Below, in pieces: positions 879-45,043 of a DNA stretch of 45,111 bases. The notes under the pieces were generated by a model, which was given only the letters and a program-made list of their open reading frames with translations, did no database searches and was not told the origin of the DNA. Source of the DNA: Bacteroidota bacterium. GTDB lineage: Bacteria; Bacteroidota; Bacteroidia; Chitinophagales; Saprospiraceae. The first letter of the stretch is position 1. The number at the start of each line of letters is the position of its first letter. The stretch spans positions 1 to 45,111 of the forward strand of contig CAUJEY010000018.1 of NCBI GenBank assembly GCA_963169325.1, given 5' to 3'. The position numbers were made by a program, and so were the translations under genes.

Positions 879-1526
879 ATGCCTGCGCAGCAAATGTACA
901 AAGTCTATATAAACGACGTCCCGGTTTTTCTTGGAACGCCGGAAAGTGTCGGAGAATTGGGCCTTTTACCCACCAAAGACGTGTTTACGGCCCCATATAT
1001 CGGCAAAAAAAAGCAGATCCGGCAATATCTCGATTTGTTGGACAAAAATAAAAATGTCCGGGCTGTGGCCCTCTACGGCGAAACGGCCGAACAACTCTGG
1101 GCCGATTTCTGTGCCTGTTTCACCCAACTGGAAGCTGCGGGCGGTTACGTGACCAATGCAGAAGGCCGGTTGCTGGTTTTTTACCGGCGCAATTCCTGGG
1201 ACATGCCGAAAGGGAAAATCGACCCCGGCGAGACGCCCGAACAAGCCGCCCTGCGCGAAGTACAGGAAGAAACCGGCCTGCAGCAGGTAACCTTGGGCCC
1301 GTTCCTTGCCCACACCTGGCATACCTACACCCAAAAAGGGGAACGTATCCTCAAACGCACCTGGTGGTATCGTATGACCACCACGGACACGAAAGTAATA
1401 CCACAGACAGAAGAAGATATAGAGGAAATCCAATGGGTGGAGCCGAATGCCTGGCTGGAAACGAAACCGGTCTTGTATAAAAGTATCCGGGAGGTGATTG
1501 AGTTGGCAGTAGGCGGTGGGCAGTAG
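879..1526 (+). CDS. NUDIX hydrolase
   Basis: With the ATG at 879 the protein has 215 residues. It has a full Nudix box, GX5EX7REUXEEXGU, at residues 112-134 (G112, E118, R126-E127, E130-E131, G133), so it should hydrolyse a nucleoside diphosphate linked to another moiety using Mg2+; the substrate cannot be told from sequence. An upstream ATG at 780 in the same frame adds 33 hydrophobic, basic residues and seems less likely. A further ATG at 894 is also possible. The first 100 residues form an extra N-terminal region without a recognised domain. The last codons and the TAG stop (1524-1526) lie inside a 7-nt array, so the C-terminus (AVGGGQ) is repeat-encoded. Confidence 0.85.
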   Translation: MPAQQMYKVYINDVPVFLGTPESVGELGLLPTKDVFTAPYIGKKKQIRQYLDLLDKNKNVRAVALYGETAEQLWADFCACFTQLEAAGGYVTNAEGRLLVFYRRNSWDMPKGKIDPGETPEQAALREVQEETGLQQVTLGPFLAHTWHTYTQKGERILKRTWWYRMTTTDTKVIPQTEEDIEEIQWVEPNAWLETKPVLYKSIREVIELAVGGGQ

Positions 1527-1546
1527 GCGGTAGGCAGTTGGCGGAT
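1505..1546 (+). repeat. Heptanucleotide array (GGCAGTA / GGCGGTA)
   Basis: There are six consecutive 7-nt units: GGCAGTA, GGCGGTG, GGCAGTA, GGCGGTA, GGCAGTT, GGCGGAT. The array starts inside the NUDIX gene and provides its stop codon. The same unit family recurs at 44974-45043 and, in reverse complement, at 2995-3078 and 36816-36906. Confidence 0.9.
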
Positions 1547-1590
1547 AGTCATTTAAAAATATTTAGACCGGGATAAAACACGCTATTTTT

Positions 1591-2385
1591 ATGCAAACGG
1601 ATCAGTCCGCATCCTACTCGTCTGACGACTCCAAGTCGTCTGACGAGTGGGATAAAAACTACCTTCAATTCATGCAAACTGACCTCGTCGCTTACTACGC
1701 TTCCCGCGCAGCGGAATACGAAAAACTCTACGAAAAACCGGAGCGACAGCAAGACCTGGCGCGCCTGACCGCCATTTTGCAAGACATCTTTCGTGAAAAA
1801 AACCTGCTTGAAGTGGCCTGCGGTACCGGTTGGTGGACGCAGCGCCTGGCGCTCACAGCCGGTTCCGTATTAGCAACCGACATCAACGAATCCATGCTGG
1901 ATATTACCCGGAGCAAGTATTACGCTAACAACAATGTCCGTTTCCAACGCGACGATATTTTCCAAAGCACCGTGGAGCATACGTTTGAAGGACTGTTCGG
2001 CGGATTTATCTGGTCGCATATCCCGCTGGAGCAGCTGGATGTTTTTTTAAGACATATCCGTCGGCGCCTGCAACCGGGGGCGACCCTGGTTTTTATCGAC
2101 AACCTTTTTGTGCCGGGCAGCAGTACGCCCATTAGTCATACCGATATGGCTTCGATCAAAACGGACGAATTCTACGAGCCCGGCAGCAGTGCGCCGCTAA
2201 GTCATACCGATAAAACCGGCAATACGTACCAAACACGGCTTTTAGCGGACGGCTCCGAACACCAGGTGCTGAAAAATTTTCCGGCGCCGGAATTTTTGAA
2301 GGAAAAACTGTCTGGAATTGGAGTTGAGGTTGAATACCGGGAGTTGGATTATTACTGGCTGGCTGCTTGTAAAATGCCGGATTAA
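1591..2385 (+). CDS. Class I SAM-dependent methyltransferase
   Basis: The protein has 264 residues from the ATG at 1591, or 237 from an in-frame ATG at 1672. It has a Rossmann methyltransferase core: motif I EVACGTG at about residues 74-80, the acidic ATDIN at about 95-99, and the later QPGATLVFID strand. The substrate is unknown. Residues 1-27 are encoded partly by a DNA hairpin (1611-1653) and are acidic and serine-rich, so the 1672 start may be the ancestral one. A segment of about 22 residues containing PGSS-P-SHTD occurs twice in tandem (DNA offset 66 nt, 2114-2146 and 2180-2212), an apparent in-frame duplication. I chose 1591 for its AT-rich leader; the start is uncertain. Confidence 0.8.
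   Translation: MQTDQSASYSSDDSKSSDEWDKNYLQFMQTDLVAYYASRAAEYEKLYEKPERQQDLARLTAILQDIFREKNLLEVACGTGWWTQRLALTAGSVLATDINESMLDITRSKYYANNNVRFQRDDIFQSTVEHTFEGLFGGFIWSHIPLEQLDVFLRHIRRRLQPGATLVFIDNLFVPGSSTPISHTDMASIKTDEFYEPGSSAPLSHTDKTGNTYQTRLLADGSEHQVLKNFPAPEFLKEKLSGIGVEVEYRELDYYWLAACKMPD
1611..1653. repeat. Near-palindrome within the 5' end of the methyltransferase gene
   Basis: Two 20-nt arms (1611-1630 and 1634-1653) are reverse complements at 18 of 20 positions around a 3-nt loop. If translation starts at 1591 it is translated as an acidic, serine-rich stretch. If it starts at 1672 the hairpin lies in the mRNA leader and could affect initiation. Confidence 0.7.
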
Positions 2386-2435
2386 CCTGAATCCAAACTA
2401 TCCGCCTGACATATTAGGTTGTGCTCCCCCTTTTT

Positions 2436-2921
2436 GCCATAGCCATCCACTTAATACTACTTTGCCACGTTAAAAAAACGGTGATCAATCTCCTTCAATT
2501 CCCTTTACCGCCGAACATCGGCTGTGCATAATCCGCGAACCTACCCTGTAACTCCTTTTCTTCCCCCCATGCGCTTGTCATCCCGAAGGGAGCTGTCCGC
2601 TCTACAACTTTGCTTATCACATTAGGCGCTGTGTTTACCCTACATTTGTTTTAAGAATAGTTCAACTAAAGCAAAGGCGAAGCGTAAACGGTTCCTTACA
2701 GAGGCCGAAAGCCTTCTTCGAAAAACTGCCGGAAGGCTTTTAAAGCAAAGGCGTAGAGCGGACAGTTCCCTTCGGGATGACAAGCGCGCGGGGGGAGAAA
2801 AAGGGGTAGGGCCGGTTCGCGGATTATGCACAGCCGGCACTCGGCGGTATCGGGAATTAAAATGAGATAAACAGTACACTTTTCTAAGGTGGCAAAGTAG
2901 TATTAAGTTGATGGCTATGCC
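2436..2921. repeat. Large foldback element of about 486 bp, no gene
   Basis: The gap between 2386 and 2970 has no convincing gene. It holds a long imperfect inverted repeat. The outer arms 2436-2468 and 2889-2921 match at 31 of 33 positions as reverse complements. A middle block including GCTGTGCATAATCCGCG (near 2521-2541 and 2816-2836) is also matched. The inner arms near 2572-2608 and 2752-2787 contain TGTCATCCCGAAGGGA and its complement. The central 2609-2751 is less paired. It resembles a non-autonomous foldback or MITE-like insertion. The right end reaches just upstream of the next gene's likely start. Confidence 0.8.
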
Positions 2922-2970
2922 CCTTTTTCCCCCAAATCCGTACCTTCCCCCCTTCAAAATTTACTATAAC

Positions 2971-5907
2971 ATGCCTTTGCCATTTTTTCGCGGCCTACTG
3001 CCCAATGCACACTGCCTACTGCCCAATGCCAACTGCCTGCTCCTCACAGTCTACTGCCTGCTGTCCACTGCCAATTGGCTATCTGCCCAAAAACCCACCC
3101 CTGCCGACGCCCGTCTGCAAAGCTTCGAGCAGCATAAAACCCTGAAAAAAAACACCTTGCTCGGCAGCCTGAAGCCCGAAAACATCGGCCCTTCCATTTT
3201 CTCCTGCCGGGTTGTCGATGTGGAAGCCAATCCCGACGATCCCACTGAAATGTACGTCGCTTACGCTTCCGGCGGATTGTGGTACAGCAACAACAACGGC
3301 ACCACGTTCAGCCCGGTATTCGACAAGGAGGCCTCCATGACCATTGGCGACATCGCCGTCGACTGGCAGCGCGGCGTCCTGTGGGTCGGCACAGGCGAAT
3401 CGAACAGCAGCCGGTCTTCGTATGCCGGCACGGGGATCTACCGCAGCGCCGACGCCGGCAAAACCTGGGAATACCGCGGCTTGCCCGAAAGTCACCACAT
3501 CGGACGAGTCGTGCTGCATCCCACCGATCCGGAGGTGATCTGGGTAGCCGTTTTAGGCCACCTCTACTCGCCAAATGCCGACCGCGGTGTGTACCGCAGC
3601 ACCGACGGCGGCCGCTCCTGGAAACGTACTTTGTTCGTGAATAACACCACCGGCGCCGTCGATCTCTGTCTCGACCCATCGGCGCCCAACACCTTATACG
3701 CTGCCACCTGGCAACGCGAACGGCAAGCCTGGAATTTCAACGGCGCCGGCGAAGGCTCGGCAATCTGGAAAAGTACCGACGGCGGCGGCACCTGGGGGCG
3801 GGTCAGCATACCCGGAAGCGGGTTCCCCACCGGCGCAAACACGGGCCGCATCGGCCTGAGCGCCGGGGCAAAAGACGGGCAAACCGTGCTATACGCCACC
3901 GTGGACAATCAAAACCCCAAGCCCAAAAAGGAAAAACCGGAGGAAGACGTGCTCACCAAAGACCAACTGCGCGATATGCCGGTCGCCGCTTTTGCAAAAA
4001 TCCCTGATGAACAGCTGGATAATTTTTTAAAAGACAATGGCTTTCCTGAAAAATACTCGGCTAAAAAAGTGAAAGACCAGGTGGAAAAAGGCAAAATCAC
4101 GCCCCAAACCCTGGTCGAATACCTCGAGGACGCCAATGCCAAACTTTTCGATGTGGACTACATCGGCGCCGAGGTATATCGCAGCGACGACGGCGGCCGC
4201 AGCTGGCAACTTAGCCACGTGGAGCCGCTCGACGGCATCAATTTTACCTACGGCTACTACTTCTCCAATGTTCGTTGTGTGCCGGATAATCCCGACAAAG
4301 TGTATCTGCTCGGTTTCTACATTATCAAAAGCGACGACGGCGGTAAAACATGGAAGGAGATTAATGGCGATAACGTGCATGTGGATCATCACGCGCTTTG
4401 GATCAACCCGAATCGTCCCGGACATCTCGTGAACGGCAATGATGGCGGCCTGAATATTTCCTGGGACGACGGCGCCTCCTGGATGTTGTGCAACAACCCG
4501 CCCGTCGGGCAGTTTTACGCCATCGGCGTAGATGAGGCTGAACCGTACAACGTATACGGCGGCGCCCAGGATAACGGCGTGTGGGCGGGCCCCTCCATCT
4601 ATAAAGCATCTGCCGGCTGGCAAAGCACCGGCCGCTACCCTTACGAACGCCTGCTCGGCGGCGACGGTATGCAGGTGGCCGTGGATACCCGCGATAATGC
4701 CACAGTGTACACCGGATTCCAGTTCGGCAACTATTTCCGGATCAATCGCAAAACCGGAAAACGCAAAAAAATCACCCCCGAACACCAGCTTGGCGAACGC
4801 CCCCCACGGTTCAACTGGCAATCCCCGATATGGCTCAGTACCCACCAGCAGGATGTGCTCTACTTCGGCGCACACCGCCTGTACCGCTCTTTCAACCAGG
4901 GCGACGATTGGGAAGCCATCTCCAACGACCTCACTGCGGGCGGCAAACCCGGCAATGTCCCCTACGGCACACTCTCCAGCATCCACGAAAGCCCGCTCAG
5001 ATTCGGCCTGCTCTACACCGGTTCCGACGACGGCCTGGTACACGTCACCCGCGACGGTGGCGACACCTGGATGCGTATATCCGATTCGCTTCCGCGCAAC
5101 TTATGGGTCTCCCGGGTGATCGCTTCGGCCCACGAAAAGAGCCGGGTGTACGTCAGCCTGAACGGCTACCGCTGGGATGATTTCAACGCATACCTCTACG
5201 TGTCGGAGGATTATGGCAAAAAATGGAGCCGCCTGGGCGCCGGCCTGCCCGCAGAGCCCGTTAACGTGGTGCGCGAAGACCCCGTCAATCCGGACCTGCT
5301 CTACGTGGGCACCGATCACGGGGTGTACGTATCACTCGACCGCGGACAATCTTTCCAGGCCCTCGACGGCGATTTTCCGGCAACGCCCGTGCATGACCTG
5401 GTCGTTCAGTCAAAGGCAAAAGACCTCCTGATCGGCACACACGGCCGCTCCATGTATAAGGTGCCTGTCGGGGCGCTTCAGCAACTGACTTCGGAGGTGC
5501 TGGCTCAGGTCATTTATTTATTTGATCTGCCAAAGAAAAAATACGCCAAAAACTGGGGCAAAAAACAACCCTGGCGCGAACTCCGGGATCCCGAACTGCC
5601 GGTGACCTTTTACGCGTCCAGCGTCGGAAAGGCCACCTGGACGGTAAAAATGAAAGACGGACTCGTGCTCAACAATGGGCAAGTGGATTGTGTTAACGGT
5701 TTGAACGCCTTTACCTTCACACTTGACTTTCAGGAAGCGGCCCTTAAAAAATACCAAAAGGCGTTGACAGATGCCCAAAAAGACCCAAAAAAGCCGATAG
5801 AATGGACTAAATCGGATACCGGAAAATATTATCTTCAAAAAGGCGTATATCTGTTTGAAATTCAAAAAGAGGGTAAAGTCGCCATTAAGGAGCTTGTTAT
5901 TGACTGA
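2971..5907 (+). CDS. Sortilin/BNR-type beta-propeller exported protein (glycosyl-hydrolase-like)
   Basis: From the ATG at 2971 the protein has 978 residues. An N-terminal hydrophobic stretch ending in WLSAQ looks like a signal peptide. The body carries many Asp-box/BNR repeats of the S-x-DGG-x-T/S-W kind (for example STDGGRSW, STDGGGTW, SDDGGRSW, SDDGGKTW, TRDGGDTW). This is typical of the VPS10/sortilin-like propeller family that is often labelled glycosyl hydrolase in Bacteroidota. No catalytic residues can be assigned, so the function (glycan binding or hydrolysis at the surface or periplasm) is inference. An insert rich in Lys, Glu and Pro lies at about residues 310-385. An in-frame ATG at 2908 would start inside the foldback arm, so 2971 is preferred. 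Almost the whole signal-peptide core is encoded by a 7-nt array. Confidence 0.85.
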   Translation: MPLPFFRGLLPNAHCLLPNANCLLLTVYCLLSTANWLSAQKPTPADARLQSFEQHKTLKKNTLLGSLKPENIGPSIFSCRVVDVEANPDDPTEMYVAYASGGLWYSNNNGTTFSPVFDKEASMTIGDIAVDWQRGVLWVGTGESNSSRSSYAGTGIYRSADAGKTWEYRGLPESHHIGRVVLHPTDPEVIWVAVLGHLYSPNADRGVYRSTDGGRSWKRTLFVNNTTGAVDLCLDPSAPNTLYAATWQRERQAWNFNGAGEGSAIWKSTDGGGTWGRVSIPGSGFPTGANTGRIGLSAGAKDGQTVLYATVDNQNPKPKKEKPEEDVLTKDQLRDMPVAAFAKIPDEQLDNFLKDNGFPEKYSAKKVKDQVEKGKITPQTLVEYLEDANAKLFDVDYIGAEVYRSDDGGRSWQLSHVEPLDGINFTYGYYFSNVRCVPDNPDKVYLLGFYIIKSDDGGKTWKEINGDNVHVDHHALWINPNRPGHLVNGNDGGLNISWDDGASWMLCNNPPVGQFYAIGVDEAEPYNVYGGAQDNGVWAGPSIYKASAGWQSTGRYPYERLLGGDGMQVAVDTRDNATVYTGFQFGNYFRINRKTGKRKKITPEHQLGERPPRFNWQSPIWLSTHQQDVLYFGAHRLYRSFNQGDDWEAISNDLTAGGKPGNVPYGTLSSIHESPLRFGLLYTGSDDGLVHVTRDGGDTWMRISDSLPRNLWVSRVIASAHEKSRVYVSLNGYRWDDFNAYLYVSEDYGKKWSRLGAGLPAEPVNVVREDPVNPDLLYVGTDHGVYVSLDRGQSFQALDGDFPATPVHDLVVQSKAKDLLIGTHGRSMYKVPVGALQQLTSEVLAQVIYLFDLPKKKYAKNWGKKQPWRELRDPELPVTFYASSVGKATWTVKMKDGLVLNNGQVDCVNGLNAFTFTLDFQEAALKKYQKALTDAQKDPKKPIEWTKSDTGKYYLQKGVYLFEIQKEGKVAIKELVID
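2995..3078 (+). repeat. Heptanucleotide array encoding a signal-peptide core
   Basis: There are twelve 7-nt units, mostly CTACTGC, CCAATGC, CAACTGC and CCACTGC (reverse complement of the GGCAGTA family). They encode about residues 9-36 of the sortilin-like protein, a Leu/Cys/Asn/Ala-rich stretch just before the predicted cleavage site. Confidence 0.9.
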
Positions 5908-5979
5908 TTAGTCATTAGTCATTAGTCGTCATTCATCATTTATAATTCATCATTCATCATTTATCATTTATAATTCATT
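5907..5979 (+). repeat. Heptanucleotide array (ATTAGTC then ATTCATC / ATTTATA)
   Basis: Three ATTAGTC units (5907-5927) are followed by GTC and seven units of ATTCATC, ATTTATA or ATTTATC (5931-5979). It fills the 80-nt gap between the sortilin-like gene and the lipoprotein gene and begins on the last base of the stop codon. It would be transcribed if the two genes are co-transcribed. Confidence 0.85.
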
Positions 5980-5987: not shown

Positions 5988-6734
5988 ATGAAAAATTTTA
6001 AGAACCTGTTCCTTGTAGCGCTTGCAGTTGGCAGTTTGACGCTTAGCGGCTGCCTGCATATTCTGGAAGACGTAACTTTCAAGGGCAACGGCTCCGGCAC
6101 CTATAAAATGACGCTCGATATGAGCGAAATTAAAGGCATGATGGACATGTTTAAGGGCATGGAAACAGACAGTTTGTCCGGGGATTCCCCGGAAGATGCT
6201 GATGCTGCCGGTGCCCCCGAAGACAACGGCATGACCGAAATGGGCCAGCAACTCAGCAGCGTCGCCGCAACCCTGAAAGGTGTAGAGGGCCTGAGCAATG
6301 TGACGGAGATCAACGACACCTCTGCCTTTAGTTTCGGATACTCTTTCGATTTTGCCAACGTGGCCGCCCTGAACAAGGCCATGAAAGTGATCAACAAGGA
6401 GAAGTACGACAGTAAAGTAGAAGAAGTCTTCAAGTTCAACGGTAAGAACTTTGAACGCTTGTCTGCCGGTGACCTCGGCGCAGAGATCAAAAAAGCGCTC
6501 GCTGAAAACGAAGATGCAGAAGCGGAAGGCAGCATGGATATGATGAAAACCTTCTTCGCCGACATGACCTACAAACAAACCTACCATTTCCCCGATCGCG
6601 CGGTCAAAAAATCGACGAACGAATTGTCAGAAATTTCAAGTGACGGCCATACGCTGACGATCACACTCAAGCCTTTTGATGAAGAGCAGGAGAAGAAAAA
6701 AGTGAACGTGGGCACGGAAGTGAAGCTGAAGTAA
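5988..6734 (+). CDS. Predicted lipoprotein of unknown function
   Basis: The protein has 248 residues. It starts with a basic n-region and a hydrophobic core followed by the lipobox LSGC, with the lipidated cysteine at residue 22. It should therefore be a periplasm-facing or outer-membrane lipoprotein. The mature part is acidic and Met/Lys-rich, with segments such as MSEIKGMMDMFKGME and a C-terminal strand-like section (GHTLTITLKPFDEEQEKK). No known domain is recognised. It lies 80 nt downstream of the sortilin-like gene in the same direction and may share its transcript. A 7-nt inverted array follows immediately. Gene reality is well supported by the signal and codon pattern; the function is not. 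Confidence 0.85.
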   Translation: MKNFKNLFLVALAVGSLTLSGCLHILEDVTFKGNGSGTYKMTLDMSEIKGMMDMFKGMETDSLSGDSPEDADAAGAPEDNGMTEMGQQLSSVAATLKGVEGLSNVTEINDTSAFSFGYSFDFANVAALNKAMKVINKEKYDSKVEEVFKFNGKNFERLSAGDLGAEIKKALAENEDAEAEGSMDMMKTFFADMTYKQTYHFPDRAVKKSTNELSEISSDGHTLTITLKPFDEEQEKKKVNVGTEVKLK

Positions 6735-6839
6735 AGTCAAAAGTCAAAATGTAAAAGTCAAAATGTAAAAGGCCACCCACGCGGCACTTTTACATTTTGA
6801 CTTTTACATTTTACATTTTGCCTTTTATATTTTGACTTT
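6734..6839. repeat. Inverted heptanucleotide arrays (AAAAGTC / AAAATGT) between convergent genes
   Basis: The left block (6734-6770) uses AAAAGTC and AAAATGT units. The right block (6787-6839) uses TTTTACA and TTTTGAC units, its reverse complement. A 16-nt G+C-rich spacer separates them. The pair forms a long A/T hairpin that would act as a bidirectional terminator between the lipoprotein gene and the convergent transferase gene. The right block runs into the transferase gene and includes its stop codon. Confidence 0.9.
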
Positions 6840-7587
6840 CCTCATCCCACTTCCTTACCGGCACCCGCGCACACGCACTCCACTCTCCTGTTACCCAATC
6901 CATAGATTCCAAATTATTGAAATTCAGTTTGTAATCAAACTGAGAAGGGACGTCGTAAGTGTAACCATGGTAATAGTATTGTTTTCCCATTTGTTGGGCC
7001 AATTGTAATTCGAGCAGCATGGTAAAAGCGCCGGGGCTCAGCTGGTTGTAGGCCGGATCGAAAAAACAATAGGTGCCCGATATCGCGTTTTCCCCAATAT
7101 GAAAATAACTACAGGCAACTAAGCGCTCGCCGTCGCGTACGGTAAATTCGAGCCCCGACACCGGCATTTCATGAGCATGCGGGTGCAGAAAAGAATACAC
7201 CGACAACGGGTGCCGGTCCTGGAAACGTTCGGTGTGGGTGAAAAACAGGGCTTCTTTTTCCGGCGTTATACGGATAGGCGCGCAGTGTACCTGCAAATGC
7301 GCGTTCCGGCGGAGCAGTTGCCGCTGACTTTTAGAGAGGGTAAAGTGCTCGTCGAGACGGATACGCAAGGGGATCGTGCGGCATATCCGGCCCCGGGAAA
7401 CGGCAAAATTGTGCCGGATAATCGAATATCCCAGGAATCGCCAGCCCTGCAACAGATATTGGTCGAACCCGGCAGGTTCCATCGGCTGCAATTCAATGCT
7501 CTCGTCGATAATGTCTTCCAGAAACGAACGATGGGTTTGCATAACAATATCAGGTAATACGGACCGGGCTTTAAAAGTTCCAGGCAA
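6811..7587 (-). CDS. Arginyl/leucyl-tRNA-protein transferase family protein (Bpt/ATE1-like)
   Basis: The protein has 258 residues. It matches the bacterial Bpt/ATE family that transfers an amino acid from aminoacyl-tRNA to N-termini in the N-degron pathway. Visible signatures are PLRIRLDEHFTLSKSQRQLL followed by RRNAHL (the S-x-SQRR-x-x-RRN block), LFFTHTERFQ, and the C-terminal YYYHGYTYD...FDYKLNFNNLE segment with the YK motif. The N-terminal paired cysteines typical of eukaryotic ATE1 are not obvious, so whether it is active, and with which tRNA, is unclear. The last residues (SQNIKGKM) and the stop lie within the 7-nt array. An internal Met at residue 16 is an alternative start. ClpC, a possible degradation partner, is encoded 4 kb away but not in the same unit. 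Confidence 0.8.
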   Translation of the reverse strand: MPGTFKARSVLPDIVMQTHRSFLEDIIDESIELQPMEPAGFDQYLLQGWRFLGYSIIRHNFAVSRGRICRTIPLRIRLDEHFTLSKSQRQLLRRNAHLQVHCAPIRITPEKEALFFTHTERFQDRHPLSVYSFLHPHAHEMPVSGLEFTVRDGERLVACSYFHIGENAISGTYCFFDPAYNQLSPGAFTMLLELQLAQQMGKQYYYHGYTYDVPSQFDYKLNFNNLESMDWVTGEWSACARVPVRKWDEESQNIKGKM

Positions 7588-7719
7588 TTTTACGAATAAT
7601 TTGAGTGGTCCTATTCCTTGTAACAGCGTTCTTTGTTGTTTAGATTAAAGTTTCAAGTTTTTGAGTTGTTCGCCTGCTGTTGAAATAACTCATAACTTAT
7701 TACCCATAACTTTTTTCCC

Positions 7720-10464
7720 ATGAACTTCGACTCGCCTGTAGCTTTACCGTACCACACCTATAATAGTTTGTTTCTCAGTTTGCCATTTCGCGGCATCGAA
7801 GCAACCGGTACCCATTTGGCTTTGTTCGGCCAGGCCTGCAAGGAGGGGTTTGCCGCCGGCCAGTCGCCTGAACAAATCATTGAGGCGTTTTGGTCGGAAT
7901 ATTTCGAAAAAGCAACTCCCGACGAACGGCTCGATCTGCTTTTTTATTTTATCCAATACCTGGAACGGCAGGTGGTGTTGTTCGATTCGGTGGAAGATGC
8001 TCTTTTTGAACAAATGCACGACGGGAACGGCGCCGGATCGCTGAACCATCTCCTGCTTCGGTTGTCAGAGGACGACCGGGAAAAATTGGTGCAAAAACTA
8101 CGCGATTTTCAGGTGCGGGTGGTGCTTACGGCGCACCCTACACAATTTTATCCGGGAAAGGTGCTGGGCATCATCAACGATCTGGGGAAAAAAATCCGGC
8201 GGAACGACCTCGCACAGATCCGGTTGCTGCTCATGCAACTCGGGAAAACCACTTTTTTCAACCGGCAAAAACCCACGCCCCTGGACGAGGCGATCAGCCT
8301 GGGCTGGTACCTGGAAAATGTGTTTTACAACACCTTGCCCGACACCTTATTCCAACTGCTCCGTGCCTTGAACCAGGATGTGACCACTTTTGCCAACCCG
8401 CACCTGCTGGCGCTCGGCTTTTGGCCCGGCGGCGACCGGGATGGCAACCCCTTCGTAGTAGCCGAAACTACCCTCGCCGTGGCTTCCCGTATGCGGGAAG
8501 CAATCCTCCGCCGGTACTACTACGATATCCGCCAACTAAAACGCCGCCTTACTTTCCGCGGCACGGAGGACTGGATTGCCGCTGCTGAACAAAAAATAAA
8601 CAATACACTGTATTATCCCGACCGCGAAACGTATGCTTCCTGCCAGGAATTGTTAACCGATCTGCTCGAAGCCAGGCGTATCCTGATTGCCGACCATGAC
8701 GGCCTTTTTTTAGATGATCTTGATCGTTTTATCCTGAAAGTCAGGGTCTTCGGATTTTATTTTGCCAGTATCGACGTCCGGCAGGACAGCCGCAAGCACA
8801 GCGAAGTTTGGGATGCTATTTTGAAAAACCGGAGCGAAAAAGACCCGCAGTTCGATCTGGCTGCTTTCCAGCGCTCCGATGAGGACGTCAAAATAAATTT
8901 CCTGTTAAACACCCATTTCCTGCCCGACGAAAACGACTACGCCGACGCTTTTATTAAAGAAACGCTCCGTTCCTTCCGGGCTATTTCCACCATTCAGCAG
9001 GCGAACGGTGAACTCGGTTGCCACCGCTACATCATCAGCAATTGTGGTAGTGCCCTGAACGTGGTAGAGGTGCTGTCTTTAATCCAGGAAACTATGCATG
9101 GTGGACGGTCGACGGTCGACGGCGGACGGTCGACGGTCGACGGGGGAGGGCTGACCGCCGACAATATGGTTGCCCCTGCTTCAGATTCGTCCACCGTCCA
9201 CCGTCCACCGTCTACCGTCCACCGTCCACCGTCTACCGTCCACCGTCCACCGTCTACCGTCGACCGTCCACCGTCTACCGTCTACCGTCCACCGTCTACC
9301 GTCGACATTGTGCCGCTGTTCGAAACAATCGAAGACCTGGCCGAGGCGGGCGCCGTGATGGAAAAACTGTACACCAACGAACATTATGCCCGCCATTTGG
9401 CCGGCCGGGGCATGCGGCAAACCATCATGCTGGGTTTTTCCGACGGCACCAAGGACGGTGGCTATCTGCGGGCCAACTGGAGTATTTACCGGGCGAAACA
9501 GGAACTGACCCGTATGGGCCGGCTCTACGGCGTGTCGGTCATCTTTTTCGACGGCAGGGGCGGCCCCCCCGGCCGCGGCGGCGGCAACAATGCCGACTTC
9601 TATGCTGCACATGGTTCGGACATAGAAAATTGCGAAATTCAGGTGACTATTCAGGGACAAACGGTGAGTAGCACGTATGGCACACAACCTGCTGCCCGGT
9701 TCAATATTGAACGGCTGTTGACGGCAGGTTTGGAAAACCACCTCTTTGAAACCCATTCCCGGGAACTATCCGAGGCAGATTCCGCCCTGCTGGACGAACT
9801 GGCAGACGCGGCCTACCAGGCATATCTGGACCTGAAAAACCACCCGGAATTTGTACCCTATCTGGAAAAAATTACCCCCCTGAAATGGTATGGCGATACA
9901 AATATCGCCAGCCGCCCGACCAAACGCGGCGCCGCCACGGGCCTGAAATTTGAAGACCTGCGCGCGATTCCTTTTGTAGGCGCCTGGGCGCAAATGAAAC
10001 AGAATGTGCCGGGTTACTATGGGTTCGGGTTAGCCCTTGAGGCGCTTTTCAAGTCCGGCCGCCGTACCGATTTACAAAACCTGTATCGTCGGTCGTTGTT
10101 CCTGCGCACGCTGGTGGAAAACTCGATGCAGTCGCTGCGTAAATCCAATTTCGACGTAACGCGTTACTTATCGGAGCATCCGCAATTCGGCCCGTTCTGG
10201 CATAAATTACAGGATGAATATGACCGTACGTACGGGGCTTTGCTGGATTTGTCCGGACAGAAAGAAATACTGGCTCAAAACCTGAATTCGCGTGCCAGTA
10301 TTAAACTCCGGGAAGATATCGTGTTGCCACTGATTGCTATTCAGCAGTTTGCATTACAACATTTGCAAAATGAAAAAGTACCGGCTGATATGCTGGAAAT
10401 TTACCGAAAACTGGTGTTGCGGGCGATGTTTGGGATTATCAACGCGGCGCGAAACGCGGCGTAA
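7720..10464 (+). CDS. ppc: Phosphoenolpyruvate carboxylase with an in-frame repeat insertion
   Basis: This 914-residue enzyme should carboxylate phosphoenolpyruvate to oxaloacetate, an anaplerotic step. Signatures: TAHPTQ with the catalytic His at residue 139, WPGGDRDGNPF, GFSDGTKDGGY and FFDGRGGPPGRGGG. Two family positions differ from the Escherichia coli consensus: FDGRGG replaces FHGRGG, and the C-terminus ends RNAA instead of QNTG or RNTG. These may be normal for Bacteroidota enzymes, which I cannot check here. Residues of about 462-528 are encoded by a pair of inverted 7-nt arrays (9103-9302) in the loop before PLFETIEDL, so the protein carries a Pro/Ser/Thr/Val/His insert made of repeats of HRPPSTV. 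The frame stays open throughout. No RBS is visible; the ATG follows a run of T and C. Confidence 0.95.
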   Translation: MNFDSPVALPYHTYNSLFLSLPFRGIEATGTHLALFGQACKEGFAAGQSPEQIIEAFWSEYFEKATPDERLDLLFYFIQYLERQVVLFDSVEDALFEQMHDGNGAGSLNHLLLRLSEDDREKLVQKLRDFQVRVVLTAHPTQFYPGKVLGIINDLGKKIRRNDLAQIRLLLMQLGKTTFFNRQKPTPLDEAISLGWYLENVFYNTLPDTLFQLLRALNQDVTTFANPHLLALGFWPGGDRDGNPFVVAETTLAVASRMREAILRRYYYDIRQLKRRLTFRGTEDWIAAAEQKINNTLYYPDRETYASCQELLTDLLEARRILIADHDGLFLDDLDRFILKVRVFGFYFASIDVRQDSRKHSEVWDAILKNRSEKDPQFDLAAFQRSDEDVKINFLLNTHFLPDENDYADAFIKETLRSFRAISTIQQANGELGCHRYIISNCGSALNVVEVLSLIQETMHGGRSTVDGGRSTVDGGGLTADNMVAPASDSSTVHRPPSTVHRPPSTVHRPPSTVDRPPSTVYRPPSTVDIVPLFETIEDLAEAGAVMEKLYTNEHYARHLAGRGMRQTIMLGFSDGTKDGGYLRANWSIYRAKQELTRMGRLYGVSVIFFDGRGGPPGRGGGNNADFYAAHGSDIENCEIQVTIQGQTVSSTYGTQPAARFNIERLLTAGLENHLFETHSRELSEADSALLDELADAAYQAYLDLKNHPEFVPYLEKITPLKWYGDTNIASRPTKRGAATGLKFEDLRAIPFVGAWAQMKQNVPGYYGFGLALEALFKSGRRTDLQNLYRRSLFLRTLVENSMQSLRKSNFDVTRYLSEHPQFGPFWHKLQDEYDRTYGALLDLSGQKEILAQNLNSRASIKLREDIVLPLIAIQQFALQHLQNEKVPADMLEIYRKLVLRAMFGIINAARNAA
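9103..9302 (+). repeat. In-frame inverted heptanucleotide arrays inside ppc
   Basis: The left block (9103-9144) has six units of GGACGGT / CGACGGT type. The right block (9191-9302) has sixteen units of CCACCGT, CTACCGT and CGACCGT, the complementary family. The spacer is 9145-9190. Three 7-nt units equal seven codons, so the right block reads as a heptapeptide repeat HRPPSTV. The structure is identical in plan to the intergenic foldbacks. Confidence 0.95.
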
Positions 10465-10490: not shown

Positions 10491-10766
10491 CTATCGATTA
10501 CCCACAAATCCAACATTTTTTAGCAGATGTCTCGCTGCGCTCGACATGACAAACAATTGAATATGAACCATTTATCCAGATTTCTCGCTGCGCTCGAAAT
10601 TAACACGGGAACACATTGCCTCACTGCGTTAGGAATGCCAGACGTATCCGGGTAATTTCGAGCGCAGCGAGAAATCTGGATAAATGGTTCATATTCAATT
10701 GTTTGTCATGTCGACCGAAGGGAGACATCTGATGGATCAATATGCGGATTTGTGGGTAATCGATAG
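10491..10766. repeat. Foldback element, copy 1
   Basis: A 276-bp near-palindrome. Both ends read CTATCGATTACCCACAAATCC in inverted orientation. The arms also contain TGTCTCGCTGCGCTCGACAT and TTTCTCGCTGCGCTCGAAAT blocks. The central loop of about 50 nt (10605-10655) is asymmetric and gives the element a direction. A second copy at 43246-43518 is in the opposite orientation. There is no gene in 10465-10907. Confidence 0.9.
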
Positions 10767-10770
10767 GGTT

Positions 10771-10897
10771 TGAAGGTTTCTAGTTGGAAGGTTTCTGGTT
10801 AGAAAGTTAGAGGGTTTCTGGTTAGCGCGGTGCAACCAGAAACCCTCTAACTTTCTAACCAGAAACCTTCTAACCTTCAAACCAGAAACCATCCAAC
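10771..10897. repeat. Inverted 15-nt (8+7) arrays attached to foldback copy 1
   Basis: The left block (10771-10834) uses GAAGGTTTCTGGTTA-type units. The right block (10844-10897) uses AACCAGAAACCTTCT-type units, its complement. The hairpin abuts the foldback at 10766, and the two look like one composite unit. The same composite occurs at 43131-43560. Confidence 0.85.
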
Positions 10898-10907
10898 CTA
10901 AAAGGTC

Positions 10908-14242: not shown

Positions 14243-14253
14243 GGCTTTTAAAG

Positions 14254-14450
14254 TTTTGAGTTTTGAGTTTTGAGTTTTGAGTTGGCAGGCAAGGGGTAGA
14301 TTTAAGAGAAGGGACAAGCGTAAAAAGGTAATATTTGCCTTTTACCGCTTGCCCCTTTCTTTTTTTACCCCTTACCTGCCAACTCAAAACCCAAAACTCA
14401 AAACTCAAAACTCAAAACCCAAAACTCAAAACTCAAAACTCAAAACTCAA
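14254..14450. repeat. Foldback bounded by inverted TTTTGAG heptamer arrays
   Basis: Four TTTTGAG units (14254-14281) face ten CTCAAAA / CCCAAAA units (14381-14450). The inner sequence also folds: GGCAGGCAAGGGGTA pairs roughly with TACCCCTTACCTGCC, and GACAAGCGTAAAAAGG with CCTTTTACCGCTTG. The arrays thus form the base of one long foldback. It lies between clpC and the Lgt-like gene and reaches to within 7 nt of the latter's start. Confidence 0.9.
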
Positions 14451-29369: not shown

Positions 29370-29433
29370 TTAACACATAGGCACATAGGCCACATAGAGC
29401 GAAGACTATGTGGCCTATGTGCCTATGTGTTAA
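29370..29433. repeat. Perfect 28-bp foldback of CACATAG units between convergent genes
   Basis: The arms 29370-29397 and 29406-29433 are exact reverse complements with an 8-nt loop (AGCGAAGA). Each arm is built of CACATAG units with G or GC between, close to the 7-nt pattern. It is followed by A/T-rich DNA on both sides and probably ends transcription from the lipoprotein gene and from hypF. Confidence 0.9.
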
Positions 29434-29462
29434 AATAATTTTGTGTTCATATTTTCGTGTTA

Positions 29463-36608: not shown

Positions 36609-38102
36609 ATGAGAAAACGAATTGCCCATCAAACGTTGCTGTCGCTGGTAGCGTGGCTTCTTTTGCAAAACTTTAACTTGTCTGCTTCGGAATCCGGCTT
36701 CCGGCGCCCGGACCCGGGCGTGGGCAACCGGCCGGGGGATACCGAACTTGTGTCAGCCCGCGGCAAAAGTACGTATTCCTGCTGCACTGCCAATCCCATC
36801 GGACAGTTTTCAGTTGGCACTGCCCCCTGCCCACTGCCTACCGCCCACCGCCTACTGCCCACTGCCCACTGCCTACTGCCTACCGCCTACTGCCCACAGC
36901 CCGTTGCATACCGTATAAAAAAAATTGTACTCGATGCCGGCCATGGTGGCAAAGACCCCGGCTGCATCGGGGCTTCTTCGAAAGAAAAACACAATGCACT
37001 GGCCATCGTGCTGAAATTAGGCGCTCTGATTAAAGCGGAATTCCCGGAGGTACAGGTCATTTATACCCGCGAAACGGATGTATTTATCGAGTTGAATGAG
37101 CGCGCGGCCATTGCCAACCGGAACAACGCCGATCTCTTCATCAGTGTACATTGCAACTCGATTAGCGTGTCGCGCATTCACGGCGCTGAAACCTATGTGA
37201 TGGGTCTGCACACCGCCCAACACAACCTGGAAGTAGCCAAACGCGAAAACGCCTCTATTTTTCTGGAAGATAATTACCAGAAAAATTATGCCGGTTACGA
37301 TCCCAACAGCCCGGAGGCGCATATTTTCGGCAGCGTATTGCAAAGCGCGTATTTAGAGCAAAGCATTCTGTTTGCCAGTTTTGTTCAGAAGTACGCTTTT
37401 GAACGCGCCGGGCGCGAGGATAAAGGTGTAAAACAGGCGGGATTCCTGGTGCTGCGCGAAACGGCCATGCCTTCCGTACTGGTGGAAGCCGGCTACCTGA
37501 CCAACCGCGCGGAGGAAGCGTTTATCGCCTCGGAAGAAGGACAGGAACAAATGGCCGATGCTATCTTTGAAGCGTTCCGGGCATACAAGGCCCAATTGGA
37601 AGGCGCTCCGTTTGCCGCCCGGCCCAAACCGGCGCCGACAAAAAGCCCGGCTCAAACAGGCACGCCCGCAGCCATAACTGCCAGCACCAAAACACCGGTG
37701 GAGCAGCCCGTCAAAACGGCGGCCAAACCTCCGGCAAATACAACACCGGTGAAACACACTGGTTCCCCTGCTGCTCACCCGATACAAGCGGGCGCCGAAA
37801 CATCCAGTAACACCGGCCACCGGGATGCCTATGGCGATGAAATTCCCGTATCCACCGTTTCAAAAAAATCCGCAGCCGACGGGTTCCGGATATTTCTGAT
37901 GAGCTGGCCCTCCCGGCTGGATAAAAGCGCCGGGCAACTCGGCCTGCTGGGCGATGTGGAAGAAGTAAAGTCGGCCGGCCAGTATCATTATTTTACCGGT
38001 AAATTTGCGACCCGGGCGGAAGCGGAAAAAATGTTGCCCGAACTGTTCAACCTGGGATTTCGCACGGCCAAAATTGAACAATCCACCCCACAAACTAATT
38101 AG
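36609..38102 (+). CDS. N-acetylmuramoyl-L-alanine amidase with an array-encoded N-terminal linker
   Basis: The protein has 497 residues. It cleaves the amide bond between muramic acid and peptide in peptidoglycan. A signal peptide occupies about residues 1-28. The Amidase_3 domain (about 103-345) has zinc ligands His112 (DAGHGGKDPG), Glu126 and His181 (SVHCNS), and a catalytic Glu in VEAGYLTN. A Pro/Thr/Ala-rich linker (about 350-425) precedes a SPOR-like C-terminal domain (about 430-497). Between the signal region and the enzyme, residues 70-100 are encoded by thirteen 7-nt units (36816-36906; [15 protein letters not shown]). The gene is followed by MCE and methyltransferase genes in the same direction. 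A role in cell separation or outer-membrane integrity is inference from this context. Confidence 0.93.
   Translation: MRKRIAHQTLLSLVAWLLLQNFNLSASESGFRRPDPGVGNRPGDTELVSARGKSTYSCCTANPIGQFSVGTAPCPLPTAHRLLPTAHCLLPTAYCPQPVAYRIKKIVLDAGHGGKDPGCIGASSKEKHNALAIVLKLGALIKAEFPEVQVIYTRETDVFIELNERAAIANRNNADLFISVHCNSISVSRIHGAETYVMGLHTAQHNLEVAKRENASIFLEDNYQKNYAGYDPNSPEAHIFGSVLQSAYLEQSILFASFVQKYAFERAGREDKGVKQAGFLVLRETAMPSVLVEAGYLTNRAEEAFIASEEGQEQMADAIFEAFRAYKAQLEGAPFAARPKPAPTKSPAQTGTPAAITASTKTPVEQPVKTAAKPPANTTPVKHTGSPAAHPIQAGAETSSNTGHRDAYGDEIPVSTVSKKSAADGFRIFLMSWPSRLDKSAGQLGLLGDVEEVKSAGQYHYFTGKFATRAEAEKMLPELFNLGFRTAKIEQSTPQTN
36816..36906 (+). repeat. Heptanucleotide array inside the amidase gene
   Basis: Thirteen consecutive 7-nt units (CCCACTG, CCTACTG, CCTACCG and variants) are the reverse complement of the GGCAGTA family. 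They encode a linker of about 30 residues ahead of the amidase domain, with no frame break. Confidence 0.93.
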
Positions 38103-39819: not shown

Positions 39820-39859
39820 GGGAGCAAAGCCATCAGTTTAAGGATTTTGGGAGCGTTTT

Positions 39860-40010
39860 TAAAGTCAAAATGTAAAATCTAAAATTTAAAACTCAAAAGG
39901 AATATCGCAGAAGGGGGGCTGTGTGCCGACATTTAGACCACTAAATATCCGTATCCACGGTATCCCACTTTTACATTTTGACTCTTACATTTTACATTTT
40001 GACTTTAAAA
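39860..40010. repeat. Inverted AAAAGTC / AAAATGT-type arrays after the methyltransferase
   Basis: The left block (39860-39898) has AAAGTC, AAAATGT, AAAATCT, AAAATTT and AAAACTC units. The right block (39968-40010) has TTTTACA and TTTTGAC units, its complement. The spacer (39899-39967) is unique. The family is the same as at 6734-6839. The remaining intergenic DNA (40011-40134) holds only a promoter candidate. Confidence 0.85.
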
Positions 40011-43130: not shown

Positions 43131-43245
43131 ATTTGAGGGTTTCTGGTTTGAAGGTTTCTGGTTTGAGGGTTTCTGGTTAGCAGCAGCAACCCTCAAACCA
43201 GGAACCTTCAAACCAGAAACCTTCAAACCAGAAACCTTCAAACCT
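43131..43245. repeat. Inverted 15-nt (8+7) arrays attached to foldback copy 2
   Basis: The left block (43131-43179) has GAGGGTTTCTGGTTT / GAAGGTTTCTGGTTT units. The right block (43189-43245) has AAACCAGAAACCTTC units, its complement. It is the counterpart, in reverse orientation, of the array at 10771-10897. Confidence 0.85.
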
Positions 43246-43518
43246 TATCGATTACCCACAAATCCAACATTTTTTAGCAGATGTCTCGCTGCGCTCGACA
43301 TGACAAACAAATGAATATGAAGTGCTTATCCAGATTTCTCGCTGCGCTCGAAATTACCCGGATACGTCTGGCATTCCTAACGCAGTGAGGCCATGTGTTC
43401 CCGTGTTAATTTCGAGCGCAGCGAGAAATCTAGATAAATAGTTCATATTCAATTGTTTGTCATGTCGAGCGCAGCGAGACATCTGCTAAAAAATGTTGGA
43501 TTTGTGGGTAATCGATAG
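43246..43518. repeat. Foldback element, copy 2
   Basis: A 273-bp near-palindrome with the same arms as 10491-10766. Its central about 52 nt are the reverse complement of the copy 1 centre with a single difference, so copy 2 is inverted relative to copy 1. The two arms carry small differences (for example GCTTATCC against AGATAAAT). The flanking arrays match the copy 1 layout. Confidence 0.9.
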
Positions 43519-43560
43519 CCCTCACACCTTCAAACCAGAAACCCTCAAACCCTCAAACCA
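43519..43560. repeat. Short trailing array of foldback copy 2
   Basis: CCTTCAAACCAGAAACC and CCTCAAACCCTCAAACC units follow the foldback, matching the short GGTTTGAAGG / GGTTAGAAGG piece at 10470-10490 next to copy 1. The 43123-43568 interval has no gene. Confidence 0.75.
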
Positions 43561-43568: not shown

Positions 43569-44909
43569 TCACATCCTGGTAATTTTACCGGAAAGCATTT
43601 TATTCCCTGTTATGATCCGATAAAAAGCCAGCCCCCCGGCCGACACTGCACTGGCCGGGATTTCGAGTTGATGCCGGCCTTGAGGCAGTTCACAGGATTG
43701 GGAATAGGTGAGGCGCCCGGCCGTATCCGTTACTTCCAGATGCAGGGTTGCCGGGCGTTCCAGCGCCAACGATATGGTTGTTTTTTCAGAAAAAGGATTT
43801 GGGAAAGCCGGTTTGACCCAGGATACGGCCGGGTAATCGGTTACCCCGGATGTGGCATCAAAGTCCAGTACAATCTTACCGGCAAGGTCGCAGCCGGCAG
43901 AAAACATGGGTTGCAGCGCAAGGGTATCCAGTTCAATGACATCTGACAATTGCCCGCCGGACTTAACTAAAAAACGGACAACCCCCACGGTATCGGAGAA
44001 GCCAAAATTAACAGAGGCATTTTTCAAAACCCCTTCCGAAGCAAAAAAGGCCCAATCATTCTGCGTGGTACCTGCGCCGGGGATAATATCCATGAGTTGT
44101 AAAACGGAAGTATCGTATCGCAAGGCAAACTGAATACCATGCACCCAAAAAGGCATTTTCTGATAAATCGGAACATCTATGGACACGCCGGCTGCCAATG
44201 CCAGATCTGGCAGGTATAAATACATGGAATCGGACTTAGTGTCGGTTTGGTAATTCCCGTCAAAGTCATAGTCGCCGTTTACATCGCCGATCTTTATGGC
44301 AGTCAAGTTGGCCGGCTGGTTTTCGAACCGAACCAGGGAATCGGCGGGAAAGGCCTGACAGTAGGGTTGAAAAGGATTCAAAGGGTTGGGCAAAGTGCAA
44401 TTTGCCGGCCAAATCCGCCAACTGGGCGAATTGGGTAGTTTGTCGTAAATACCCAACAGCAGTTTGCGGAGTTCTACCAGGTCAAATCCGGTAACAGAAC
44501 CGCTTTTATTGACGTCGGCAGCGAGTAGAGCGTACTGCGACAAGGGGTTGAGGCCCAGAATATGTTGGTTGATACAAACCAGGTCGCTAATGGAAATGCC
44601 GTTTCGGTAGTCGTTTATGGTGTCCGGTTTGTTTCCATATATCCAAAAATCGGGAATCGTCTGCTGTGCGTCGGGAACTACCGTCGCCTGGCTGCATGGG
44701 CTATTAATATCGGCCGTGCCGGCAAAGGTCAAATCCGATGAGCCGGGATAATCCAGTACGACGTCTATACTCAGGTTATTCACCGGATGGTCGTTCGCCC
44801 AGAATTTGGCGCAGCCGGTTACCTGGAACGTATCAGGTGTTTGTGCAGAAAAAATAGTGGGAAACAAAATCGCGAGCAGTGCTGCGCAGGCAGGGTAGAG
44901 ACTTTTCAT
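43569..44909 (-). CDS. T9SS cargo with dockerin-like and cohesin-like regions
   Basis: The protein has 446 residues. It has a signal peptide (MKSLYPACAALLAILFPTIFS, cleaved near residue 22). A region of about 100-160 resembles dockerin type I repeats (NGISISDLVCINQHILG; DVNKSGSVTGFDLVELRKLLLG). A third short DVNGD motif is at about 210-214, whose Asp/Asn residues would bind Ca2+. A cohesin-like beta section (about 235-330; GVSIDVPIYQKMPFWVHGIQ, FALRYDTSVLQL) follows. The last about 75 residues (FPNPFSEKTTISLALERP, GRHQLEIP, IITGNKMLSGKI) are a T9SS sorting domain. It likely sits on the surface or in a secreted complex. It has a clear upstream promoter, and a 7-nt array borders that promoter. 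Confidence 0.85.
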   Translation of the reverse strand: MKSLYPACAALLAILFPTIFSAQTPDTFQVTGCAKFWANDHPVNNLSIDVVLDYPGSSDLTFAGTADINSPCSQATVVPDAQQTIPDFWIYGNKPDTINDYRNGISISDLVCINQHILGLNPLSQYALLAADVNKSGSVTGFDLVELRKLLLGIYDKLPNSPSWRIWPANCTLPNPLNPFQPYCQAFPADSLVRFENQPANLTAIKIGDVNGDYDFDGNYQTDTKSDSMYLYLPDLALAAGVSIDVPIYQKMPFWVHGIQFALRYDTSVLQLMDIIPGAGTTQNDWAFFASEGVLKNASVNFGFSDTVGVVRFLVKSGGQLSDVIELDTLALQPMFSAGCDLAGKIVLDFDATSGVTDYPAVSWVKPAFPNPFSEKTTISLALERPATLHLEVTDTAGRLTYSQSCELPQGRHQLEIPASAVSAGGLAFYRIITGNKMLSGKITRM

Positions 44910-44941
44910 CGGTGATTACATTTTAGAGATAAAAGTGGATT

Positions 44942-44972
44942 CAAAGTTATCTCTATTGACCGGGAAAAGCAA
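44942..44972 (-). promoter_or_regulatory. Promoter of the dockerin-type T9SS cargo
   Basis: On the minus strand TTG (44970-44972) and TAACTTTG (44942-44949, exact TAnnTTTG) are separated by 20 nt, with a leader of about 26 nt to the ATG at 44909. A heptanucleotide array begins 2 nt upstream of the TTG box. Confidence 0.6.
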
Positions 44973-44973
44973 T

Positions 44974-45043
44974 AGGCAGTATGCAGTGGGCGGTAGGCAG
45001 TAAGCAGTGGGCAGTAGGCGGTAGGCGGTAGGCGGTAGGCAGT
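44974..45043 (+). repeat. Heptanucleotide array (AGGCAGT / AGGCGGT) at the window end
   Basis: Ten consecutive 7-nt units (AGGCAGT, ATGCAGT, GGGCGGT, AGGCAGT, AAGCAGT, GGGCAGT, AGGCGGT three times, AGGCAGT) are followed by a G-rich tract. It is the same unit family as 1505-1546. An inverted partner may lie beyond the window. No gene is seen in 44974-45111. Confidence 0.9.

Follow-up and report, generated by a model that had tools for sequence, protein, structure and literature searches.

Heptanucleotide tandem repeats have been described in several bacterial lineages, and arrays of this kind, many of them paired as long hairpins, are scattered through the stretch considered here, a 45,111-nt contig (CAUJEY010000018.1; the whole of it is referred to as the window) of a Saprospiraceae genome (Bacteroidota; GCA_963169325.1). 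Short tandemly repeated repetitive (STRR) heptamers occur in heterocystous cyanobacteria, and period 7 is said to dominate the long simple sequence repeats (LSSRs) studied by Mrazek in 2007, for which slippage was reportedly considered. In Xanthomonas, the dispersed GGGAATC heptamers are mostly intergenic and lie nearer to the 5' neighbouring open reading frame (ORF) (Rehm et al. 2015, PMC4692102). Among 186 GGGAATC repeats of Xanthomonas campestris pv. campestris (Xcc), 70 cases of two sites facing each other were reported, with 16% of the repeats between convergent and 8% between divergent genes, and the prominent repeat lengths are not found at the same genes in two species (PMC4692102).

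A second described system consists of TAACTGA arrays, which are found in Beggiatoaceae, Cyanobacteria and five Bacteroidetes (MacGregor 2015, PMC4679880), so that the statement in the initial annotation that no comparable Bacteroidota system was known cannot be upheld. BOGUAY has a single indirect repeat against 169 direct sets; in Flexibacter litoralis, 12 of the 14 sets run forward before start codons and one lies reversed after a stop codon; and in Gramella forsetii and A. sublithincola 'other heptamer direct repeats' share the same gaps with TAACTGA (PMC4679880). The same paper credits Mrazek 2007 with the observation that 7-nt units are the commonest long-repeat class in most genomes and with the idea of polymerase slippage, and a 2025 survey of short tandem repeats reports a high density in Bacteroidota (PMC12699852). 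For Saprospiraceae, no paper on heptameric tandem repeats was found in the open-licence literature searched.

The present repeats resemble those of Xanthomonas in being dispersed intergenic heptamers that form facing pairs and are more frequent between convergent than between divergent genes; they differ in that one unit family with a G-quadruplex motif is found there, whereas the sampled part of the present genome holds eleven family clusters, periods of 7–10 and 15 nt, long stems and arrays within genes. With TAACTGA they share 7-nt direct repeats that are intergenic and oriented to gene starts, with other heptamers nearby in two Bacteroidetes, although in that system a single unit stands mostly before starts and here the hairpins lie mostly at 3' ends. 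Dominance of period 7 is common to STRRs and LSSRs as well, but paired hairpins with species-specific vocabularies are not described in the available material on either. As far as searches of the open-licence literature go, the new points are the many words per genome, inverted pairing as a rule, the fixed polarity of each word, the turnover of vocabulary between congeners, the arrays in core enzymes and the contrast in SbcCD; facing heptamer pairs, proximity to the 5' gene and the convergent excess were already known from Xanthomonas, and heptamers in Bacteroidetes from TAACTGA.

The arrays are read here as slippage-prone heptamer-type repeats that are kept as 3'-end hairpins where the palindrome-cutting SbcCD is lost, an account to which a probability of about 0.5 is assigned. 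The genome (labelled G000) comprises 8.07 Mb in 349 contigs, the window being contig 18, and 735 kb of it were sampled for arrays with Tandem Repeats Finder, single Markov-shuffled sequences of stated order serving as controls. This sample contained 214 tandem arrays (29 per 100 kb), compared with 16 in a second-order control, and their most frequent periods were 7 (65 arrays), 8 (37), 15 (22), 9 (18), 10 (17), 12 (16) and 14 (11). In 366 kb of G000 there were 120 array groups versus 4 in one first-order control, and 200 kb from each of two relatives yielded 64 versus 5 (G022) and 36 versus 3 (G009) arrays. By comparison, thirty loci from named genomes, mostly of Flavobacterium (677 kb), gave 107 arrays versus 53 in the control, only six of the 107 with period 7. 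An independent measure, the number of exact 12-mers recurring at a fixed lag, was 0 at lag 5, 1 at lag 6 and 52 at lag 7, with 18, 7 and 17 at lags 8, 9 and 10 and 53, 39 and 45 at lags 14, 15 and 21; the corresponding counts in one third-order Markov control were all 0, and the lag-7 peak was absent in the thirty loci from named genomes. The main period is therefore 7, periods 8, 9, 10 and 15 being real too. Head-to-tail 7-nt units thus occur above chance and are mostly intergenic, as in LSSRs. The proposal in the initial annotation that one period class with many unit sequences extends through the genome, and does not derive from one seed, is borne out by these counts (214 versus 16 arrays, 11 families), as is the enrichment of period 7 (65/214 arrays, lags 5 and 6 near zero), while its conservation of period has to be relaxed: 7 is commonest and the lag peaks fall at 7 and its multiples, but the range is 7–10. 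An array lies within 300 bp of 8 of the 20 G000 contig starts C1–C20 (one of the eight being a 23-nt low-complexity row), so that the assembly is interrupted by arrays, whose number is probably underestimated.

Once arrays with periods 1, 12, 18, 24, 36 and 42 (24 of 214) had been removed, 156 of the remaining 190 G000 arrays clustered by sequence into 11 families, so this sample has no single dominant unit, which is a trait of the Xanthomonas and Beggiatoaceae examples and not of heptameric LSSRs in general. Where two arrays of the same family follow each other within 200 bp, the second is inverted relative to the first in 42 G000 pairs and direct in 2, the corresponding numbers in G022 being 11 and 0; neighbouring arrays therefore form long stem-loops with short or medium loops. 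Halves of such inverted pairs make up 84 of the 156 family arrays, and the other 72 are single, with no partner arm. The word of the 5' arm is constant within its family in all 41 G000 pairs, of which 37 belong to six sets of at least two hairpins (GTTTGAA-type 22/22, AAAATGT-type 4/4, GTCATT-type 4/4 and three smaller sets 7/7) and four are one-hairpin families uninformative on polarity; the 42nd pair, at L168:15888-16019, was dropped from these counts as it joins two different words and is no true hairpin. Neither the inverted pairing nor the fixed polarity had been mentioned in the initial annotation. A rule that the G/T-rich arm always comes 5' was rejected: 50 neighbouring G000 arrays of any family comprised 33 G/T-first, 9 A/C-first and 8 other cases, and polarity is therefore set per family and not per composition. 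Stop codons in the 5' arm were also considered as the cause of polarity, inward stop triplets being more numerous in 27 and fewer in 10 of 42 G000 hairpins and more numerous in 9 and fewer in 1 of 11 in G022; the idea was dropped, the families not being independent. Folded as RNA, four window hairpins reached -46 to -83 kcal/mol (z -10.8 to -14.8), and two single window arrays gave no fold. The two arms of a hairpin share a common word dialect, often in a different word order, and in a by-eye comparison across loci the loops, ends and flanks of the main families look locus-specific.

The hairpins are placed preferentially at the 3' ends of genes. Among 42 in G000, 13 lie between convergent, 18 between codirectional and 2 between divergent genes, with 6 in coding sequence and 3 at a piece edge. 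Set against totals of 92 convergent, 293 codirectional and 91 divergent gene pairs, this corresponds to 13/92 convergent versus 2/91 divergent pairs (Fisher p=0.005). The 72 single family arrays (11 convergent, 21 codirectional, 13 divergent, 17 coding, 10 edge) showed no convergent preference in G000 (11/92 versus 13/91, p=0.67), and the convergent-to-divergent contrast between hairpins and single arrays gave p=0.017. Array-free convergent gaps have a median length of 19 nt (n=66); in the 13 hairpin-bearing gaps a median of 7 nt remains outside the hairpin, although 3 of the 13 keep 126–331 nt. The sense strand after stop codons is the G/T-rich one at 64 of 81 array ends in G000 and G022 together (64:17) and at 28 of 37 in six other, held-out genomes (28:9, p=0.008), against 190:166 in array-free flanks of all eight genomes, the array counts including both arms of one hairpin and thus not being fully independent. 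Sets with few arrays, kept outside the pooled test, gave 3' counts of 2:0 in G008, 2:0 in G012 and 1:1 in G011, G025 and G035 pooled. An orientation signal at start codons (14:1 in divergent gaps; 21:3 within 30 nt) was set aside, being explained largely by A/C-rich leaders.

Changes between close relatives can be followed in G007 and G009 (9 and 7 contigs), which are 95.4% identical over 4,086 bp around the phosphoenolpyruvate (PEP) carboxylase gene. Between the same flanks, a TGTTGGT array of 411 bp in G007 corresponds to one of 54 bp in G009, the lengths differing by exactly 51 x 7, and a GTTGTTC array has 14.6 copies versus 10.4. A hairpin region measures 250 bp in G007 and 69 bp in G009, with the loop replaced and the arms kept, and a G007 stretch with 10-nt arrays, in which GTTGAT occurs 26 times over 1.2 kb, corresponds to a G009 piece with none. 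At this handful of loci, copy-number variation is confirmed, a comparison of strains for array length having been proposed in the initial annotation. Vocabulary also differs by species, with AGTGTTTT and TCATCAC in G005, GTTGATGAGG in G007 and GGACGGT and GGATTGC in G022. The GGCAGTA doublet occurs in 15 of 100 genomes, G000 included, and in 7 of 52 genera (reversed control, 4/100), and (AACTCAA)3 in 8 of 296 genomes of the phylum, again including G000, a count that has no reversed control since this word reversed is an identical string. Viral contigs showed no clear word preference, (AACTCAA)3 occurring in 19 stretches (about 14 distinct) compared with 8, 6 and 15 for three permuted words; the IMG/VR contigs L285, L290 and L296 carry AACTCAA-type hairpins with, by eye, the same G/T-first polarity. 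Three plasmid searches by BLAST, run with the low-complexity filter on, gave no match.

SbcCD is a nuclease that cuts long palindromes and hairpin DNA. An SbcD model scored above its cut-off in 5 of 42 genomes of the genus (G004, G008, G012 and G036 at 180–210 bits, G014 marginally), in 12 of 19 genomes from other genera of the family and in 10 of 39 from the rest of the order, and in this search canonical SbcD was absent from the hairpin-rich genomes, G000 included. Instead, G000 has an adjacent 375-aa metallophosphatase and 801-aa Rad50-like protein (L247:792-1919 and 1982-4387, C298), and a Rad50-like frame of 801–845 aa was present in 26 of the 37 genus genomes searched; in much of the genus, a short Mre11/Rad50-like pair seems to take the place of canonical SbcCD. 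The density of inverted repeats with arms of at least 25 nt is 13.3 per 100 kb in G000, 11.3 in G022, 9 in G005, 6.2 in G007 and 6 in G021, compared with 2.5 in G008, 1.7 in G012 and in G042 and 0 in G059 and G047, all of which are SbcD-positive.

Taken together, repeats of the 7-nt type (7–10 nt) would arise and change length through slippage and recombination, mostly in short intergenic gaps, each species having its own vocabulary of words that recurs at many loci. The arms may keep common words by template switching or conversion inside the hairpin, because they share words but often not their order, and the hairpins would persist through the lack of canonical SbcCD. Beside stop codons, the great stability of the 3' stem-loops they give in RNA would be tolerated or even selected; the form mainly tolerated within coding sequence and leaders would be the unpaired one with an A/C-rich sense strand.

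Several results weigh against this account. Slippage accounts for the period and for the change in length, but not for the presence of one word at dozens of loci. The best match of an arm is its own partner, over every other locus of the family, in no more than 11 of the 38 pairs of G000 and 2 of the 8 of G022, so that strict arm-to-arm correction is not general. Some SbcD-negative genomes are poor in hairpins (G011 and G035 with no long inverted repeat in 100 kb, G025 with 1, and G009 with 3.4 per 100 kb), and G001, G003, G019, G029 and G039, also negative, had none in samples of 17–24 kb; loss of SbcD is therefore at most permissive. Arms of at least 35 nt were lacking in 80 kb of G007, and two occurred in 120 kb of SbcD-positive G008. 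G023 shows no SbcD, though it is 94.5% identical to G008 at one locus, a resemblance which indicates that, where a genome is fragmented, the gene may be missing only from the assembly. SbcD absence may thus permit hairpins without causing them, and it is confounded with ancestry, genome size and assembly gaps. The 11 hairpins of G022, a small set, comprised three each between convergent, codirectional and divergent genes and two in coding sequence, and thus no convergent excess. T-runs were not enriched at hairpin bases (20/106 versus 200/945 random intergenic 20-mers), so the hairpins are not ordinary intrinsic (rho-independent) terminators, though their stems are very stable. A start-codon bias of 40:6 in G000 and G022 (p=0.015) was found, but the held-out genomes gave 14:5 against a background of 329:135 (p=1). 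Furthermore, gene boundaries were set by a home-made caller that uses a simple hexamer method. In a further reading, regarded as unlikely, a species-specific vocabulary would be actively copied among hundreds of gene ends and built into long hairpins whose orientation to the genes is fixed. The result would be a self-spreading gene-end element, constant in period and architecture though its sequence turns over between species, and the loss of canonical SbcCD would have made it possible.

Another explanation is that the hairpins are mobile palindromic elements, similar to miniature inverted-repeat transposable elements (MITEs) or repetitive extragenic palindromic (REP) elements, which are moved by a transposase and of which the arrays are decayed or expanded copies, the fixed polarity following from the fact that a hairpin inserted either way round reads with the same polarity. 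A MITE has constant terminal inverted repeats and a target site duplication. True mobile palindromes do coexist with the arrays. At L183:12588-12712, G009 carries a MITE-like element of 124 bp with a target duplication of 7 bp that is absent from the same site in G007; this element has many copies elsewhere, and the 8-nt repeats in its arms, CACAAAGG, recall the small G000 hairpins built of CACATAGG and of CTTTGTGT. A palindromic family of about 168 bp has dozens of matches in G007, and a palindrome of 272–274 bp with ends TATCGATTACCCACA / TGTGGGTAATCGATA and copies 93% and 89% identical stands beside two window arrays, the copy at 43246-43517 seeming to have been inserted into an array arm. 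The constant polarity within families also fits mobile elements, as does the recurrence of the loop core CGTAGARTACACCG, which is conserved inside array hairpins of two species (G000 and G007) with different arm words. On the other hand, the main array families resemble MITEs and REP elements in being palindromic, intergenic and multicopy, but no constant ends, loops or target duplications were seen when their flanks and loops were compared by eye, and only the separate 124-bp element has the features of a MITE. Loops, ends and flanks differ between loci, and no REP-like conserved hairpin foot was noticed, in both cases by eye and with no formal test; one loop was swapped between G007 and G009 with the arms unchanged; and 72 of the 156 family arrays are single. 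The Y1 transposase (PF01797) is matched in 34 of the 42 genus genomes, but had no match in G039, which bears GGCAGTA arrays, and seven in array-poor G025. A mobile origin of the main families is accordingly judged rather doubtful.

The location of the arrays at gene borders and their orientation after stop codons, together with the Flexibacter litoralis TAACTGA sets that run forward before starts (12/14, PMC4679880), would be consistent with words that are selected signals, either sites bound by an RNA- or DNA-binding protein (of the S1, cold-shock or Csr-like kinds suggested in the case of TAACTGA) or a signal for the processing of 3' ends; many unrelated words per genome and different vocabularies in congeners are nevertheless unlike one binding site, which makes this decidedly improbable. 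A telomerase- or DRT10-like reverse transcriptase could write units onto DNA ends, whose joining would leave facing arrays. Fixed facing polarity and locus-specific loops fit two extended ends, and DRT10 does produce 9-nt tandem-repeat cDNA from an RNA template (PMC12632851), but RVT_1 (PF00078) was not matched in G005, a hairpin-rich genome that is 98% complete and has 9 long inverted repeats in 100 kb, or in G006 and G010 (rich in 24-kb samples), a search that took in neither other reverse transcriptase models nor template RNAs, and such an origin appears very remote. Neither RVT_1 reverse transcriptase nor Y1 transposase is supported as a required maker, each having given no match in at least one array-bearing genome. 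Assembly artefacts, to which the clustering of arrays at G000 contig ends might point and which the initial annotation had named as a possible refutation, have hardly any claim, since the megabase contigs of G007 and G009 hold like arrays in their interior, where orthologous sites have the same flanks, and others run in frame within conserved genes.

Three arrays of the window lie within core enzymes, where a period not divisible by 3 means that, after 21 nt, every reading frame has given the same peptide word. The hairpin array in PEP carboxylase encodes a linker of 74 residues, compared with 12–36 in 28 relatives' sequences (two of them duplicates), and in G022 a different, AATCCGC-type heptamer array occupies the same place and is translated as NPQSAIRNPQSEIPNPQS. 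In chorismate synthase, the array encodes residues 274–284, where the query is nine residues longer than PDB 7rca. In HypF, it encodes residues 504–530, mostly in the gap 486–525 between two parts matched by PDB 3vth, a gap at which the 3vth chain has 4 residues. Among the named genomes fetched, those nearest by the window PEP carboxylase are a contig of Thermoanaerobaculia MAG.385 (74%) and a Saprospiraceae metagenome-assembled genome (63%), followed by other Bacteroidota; the MAG.385 contig is probably a mislabelled relative, because its PEP carboxylase loop aligns exactly as in genus member G040.

Features of the window (positions in window coordinates unless preceded by another label). For single arrays the strand is that of the G/T-rich sequence; hairpins are given as a dot.
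Feature	Position	Strand	Context
Hairpin, 8-nt units GGTTTGGG.../CTCTAAAC	3-118	.	contig start; abuts 3' end of gene 759..124
Single GGCAGTA array	1501-1544	+	overlaps 3' end of NUDIX gene
Single GGCAGTA array (GCCTACT on +)	2993-3072	-	near start of BNR-repeat ORF
Two abutting 7-nt arrays, ATTAGTC then TCATTCA	5907-5978	.	between two genes; no hairpin
Hairpin, AAAAGTC/AAAATGT units	6733-6839	.	convergent genes; 6728-6845 folded as RNA, -45.9 kcal/mol, z -10.8
Single ATAACTC-type array	7685-7727	-	directly 5' of PEP carboxylase start
Hairpin array GGTCGAC / CGTCCAC	9100-9303	.	in frame within PEP carboxylase
Hairpin, 8+7 units GGTTAGAAGGTTTCT	10768-10899	.	convergent genes; fold -83.2 kcal/mol, z -14.8
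Hairpin, AGTTTTG/AACTCAA arrays	14252-14450	.	between clpC and lgt; encloses second stem
Single AACTCAA array	16583-16633	-	between genes 15173-16600 and 16640-16960; RNA unstructured, -0.3 kcal/mol
AGTTTTG array	24324-24355	+	in frame within chorismate synthase (gene on minus strand)
Hairpin, CACATAGG units (8-9 nt)	29374-29429	.	convergent genes; fold of 29366-29440, -51.1 kcal/mol, z -13.4
TTTGAAG array	30555-30634	+	in frame within HypF (gene on minus strand)
Single CACTGCC array	36818-36913	-	upstream of, or at N-terminus of, amidase gene; RNA z +1.2, no structure
Hairpin, AAAATGT-type units	39858-40000	.	68-nt loop
Hairpin, 15-nt (8+7) units	43132-43246	.	after M1 peptidase gene; fold -80.7 kcal/mol, z -13.3
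C/A-rich array	43519-43559	-	272-bp palindromic element between array and 43132-43246 hairpin
Single GGCAGTA array	44969-45046	+	upstream of gene 44909..43569
Copies of 272-274-bp palindrome	window 10492-10765, 43246-43517; L165:9789-10060		both window copies adjoin array hairpins
Loop core CGTAGARTACACCG	L092:15537; L161:11421; L262:3400, 4019, 4092, 4165

Of the unit families listed in the initial annotation, GGCAGTA (1501-1544 and 44969-45046; complement at 2993-3072 and 36818-36913), TTTTGAG (14252-14283, 14381-14450, 16583-16633 and 24324-24355), AAAAGTC/AAAATGT (6733-6839 and 39858-40000), TTTGAAG (30555-30634), CCACCGT (9100-9303) and ATTCATC (5907-5978) were recovered near the places given for them, while CACATAG (29374-29429) steps by 8–9 nt and not by 7; the arrays described there as having 8-nt or 8+7 units were found at 3-118, 10768-10899, 43132-43246 and 43519-43559. 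The interior of the AGTTTTG hairpin (14284-14380) is a non-repetitive stem with a T-run, the base of this pre-existing stem being flanked by the arrays, and it is perhaps the clpC terminator. A further inverted repeat, with 65-nt arms and a 127-nt loop, lies at 2551-2807 and has partial copies in L091, L095 and L107. In a Pfam scan of 30 window ORFs, 26 had a family match and 4 had none, most matches being to ordinary metabolic, transport and cell-envelope families.

The dominance of 7-nt repeats in some bacteria is an old question, and a single genus with many words, a near-complete pair of genomes with 95% identity at one compared locus and both SbcD-positive and SbcD-negative members allows slippage, transposition and nuclease loss to be separated by comparison. 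The arrays matter in practice, as they break genome assemblies, and, in the loops and linkers of core enzymes, they are a source of new protein segments.

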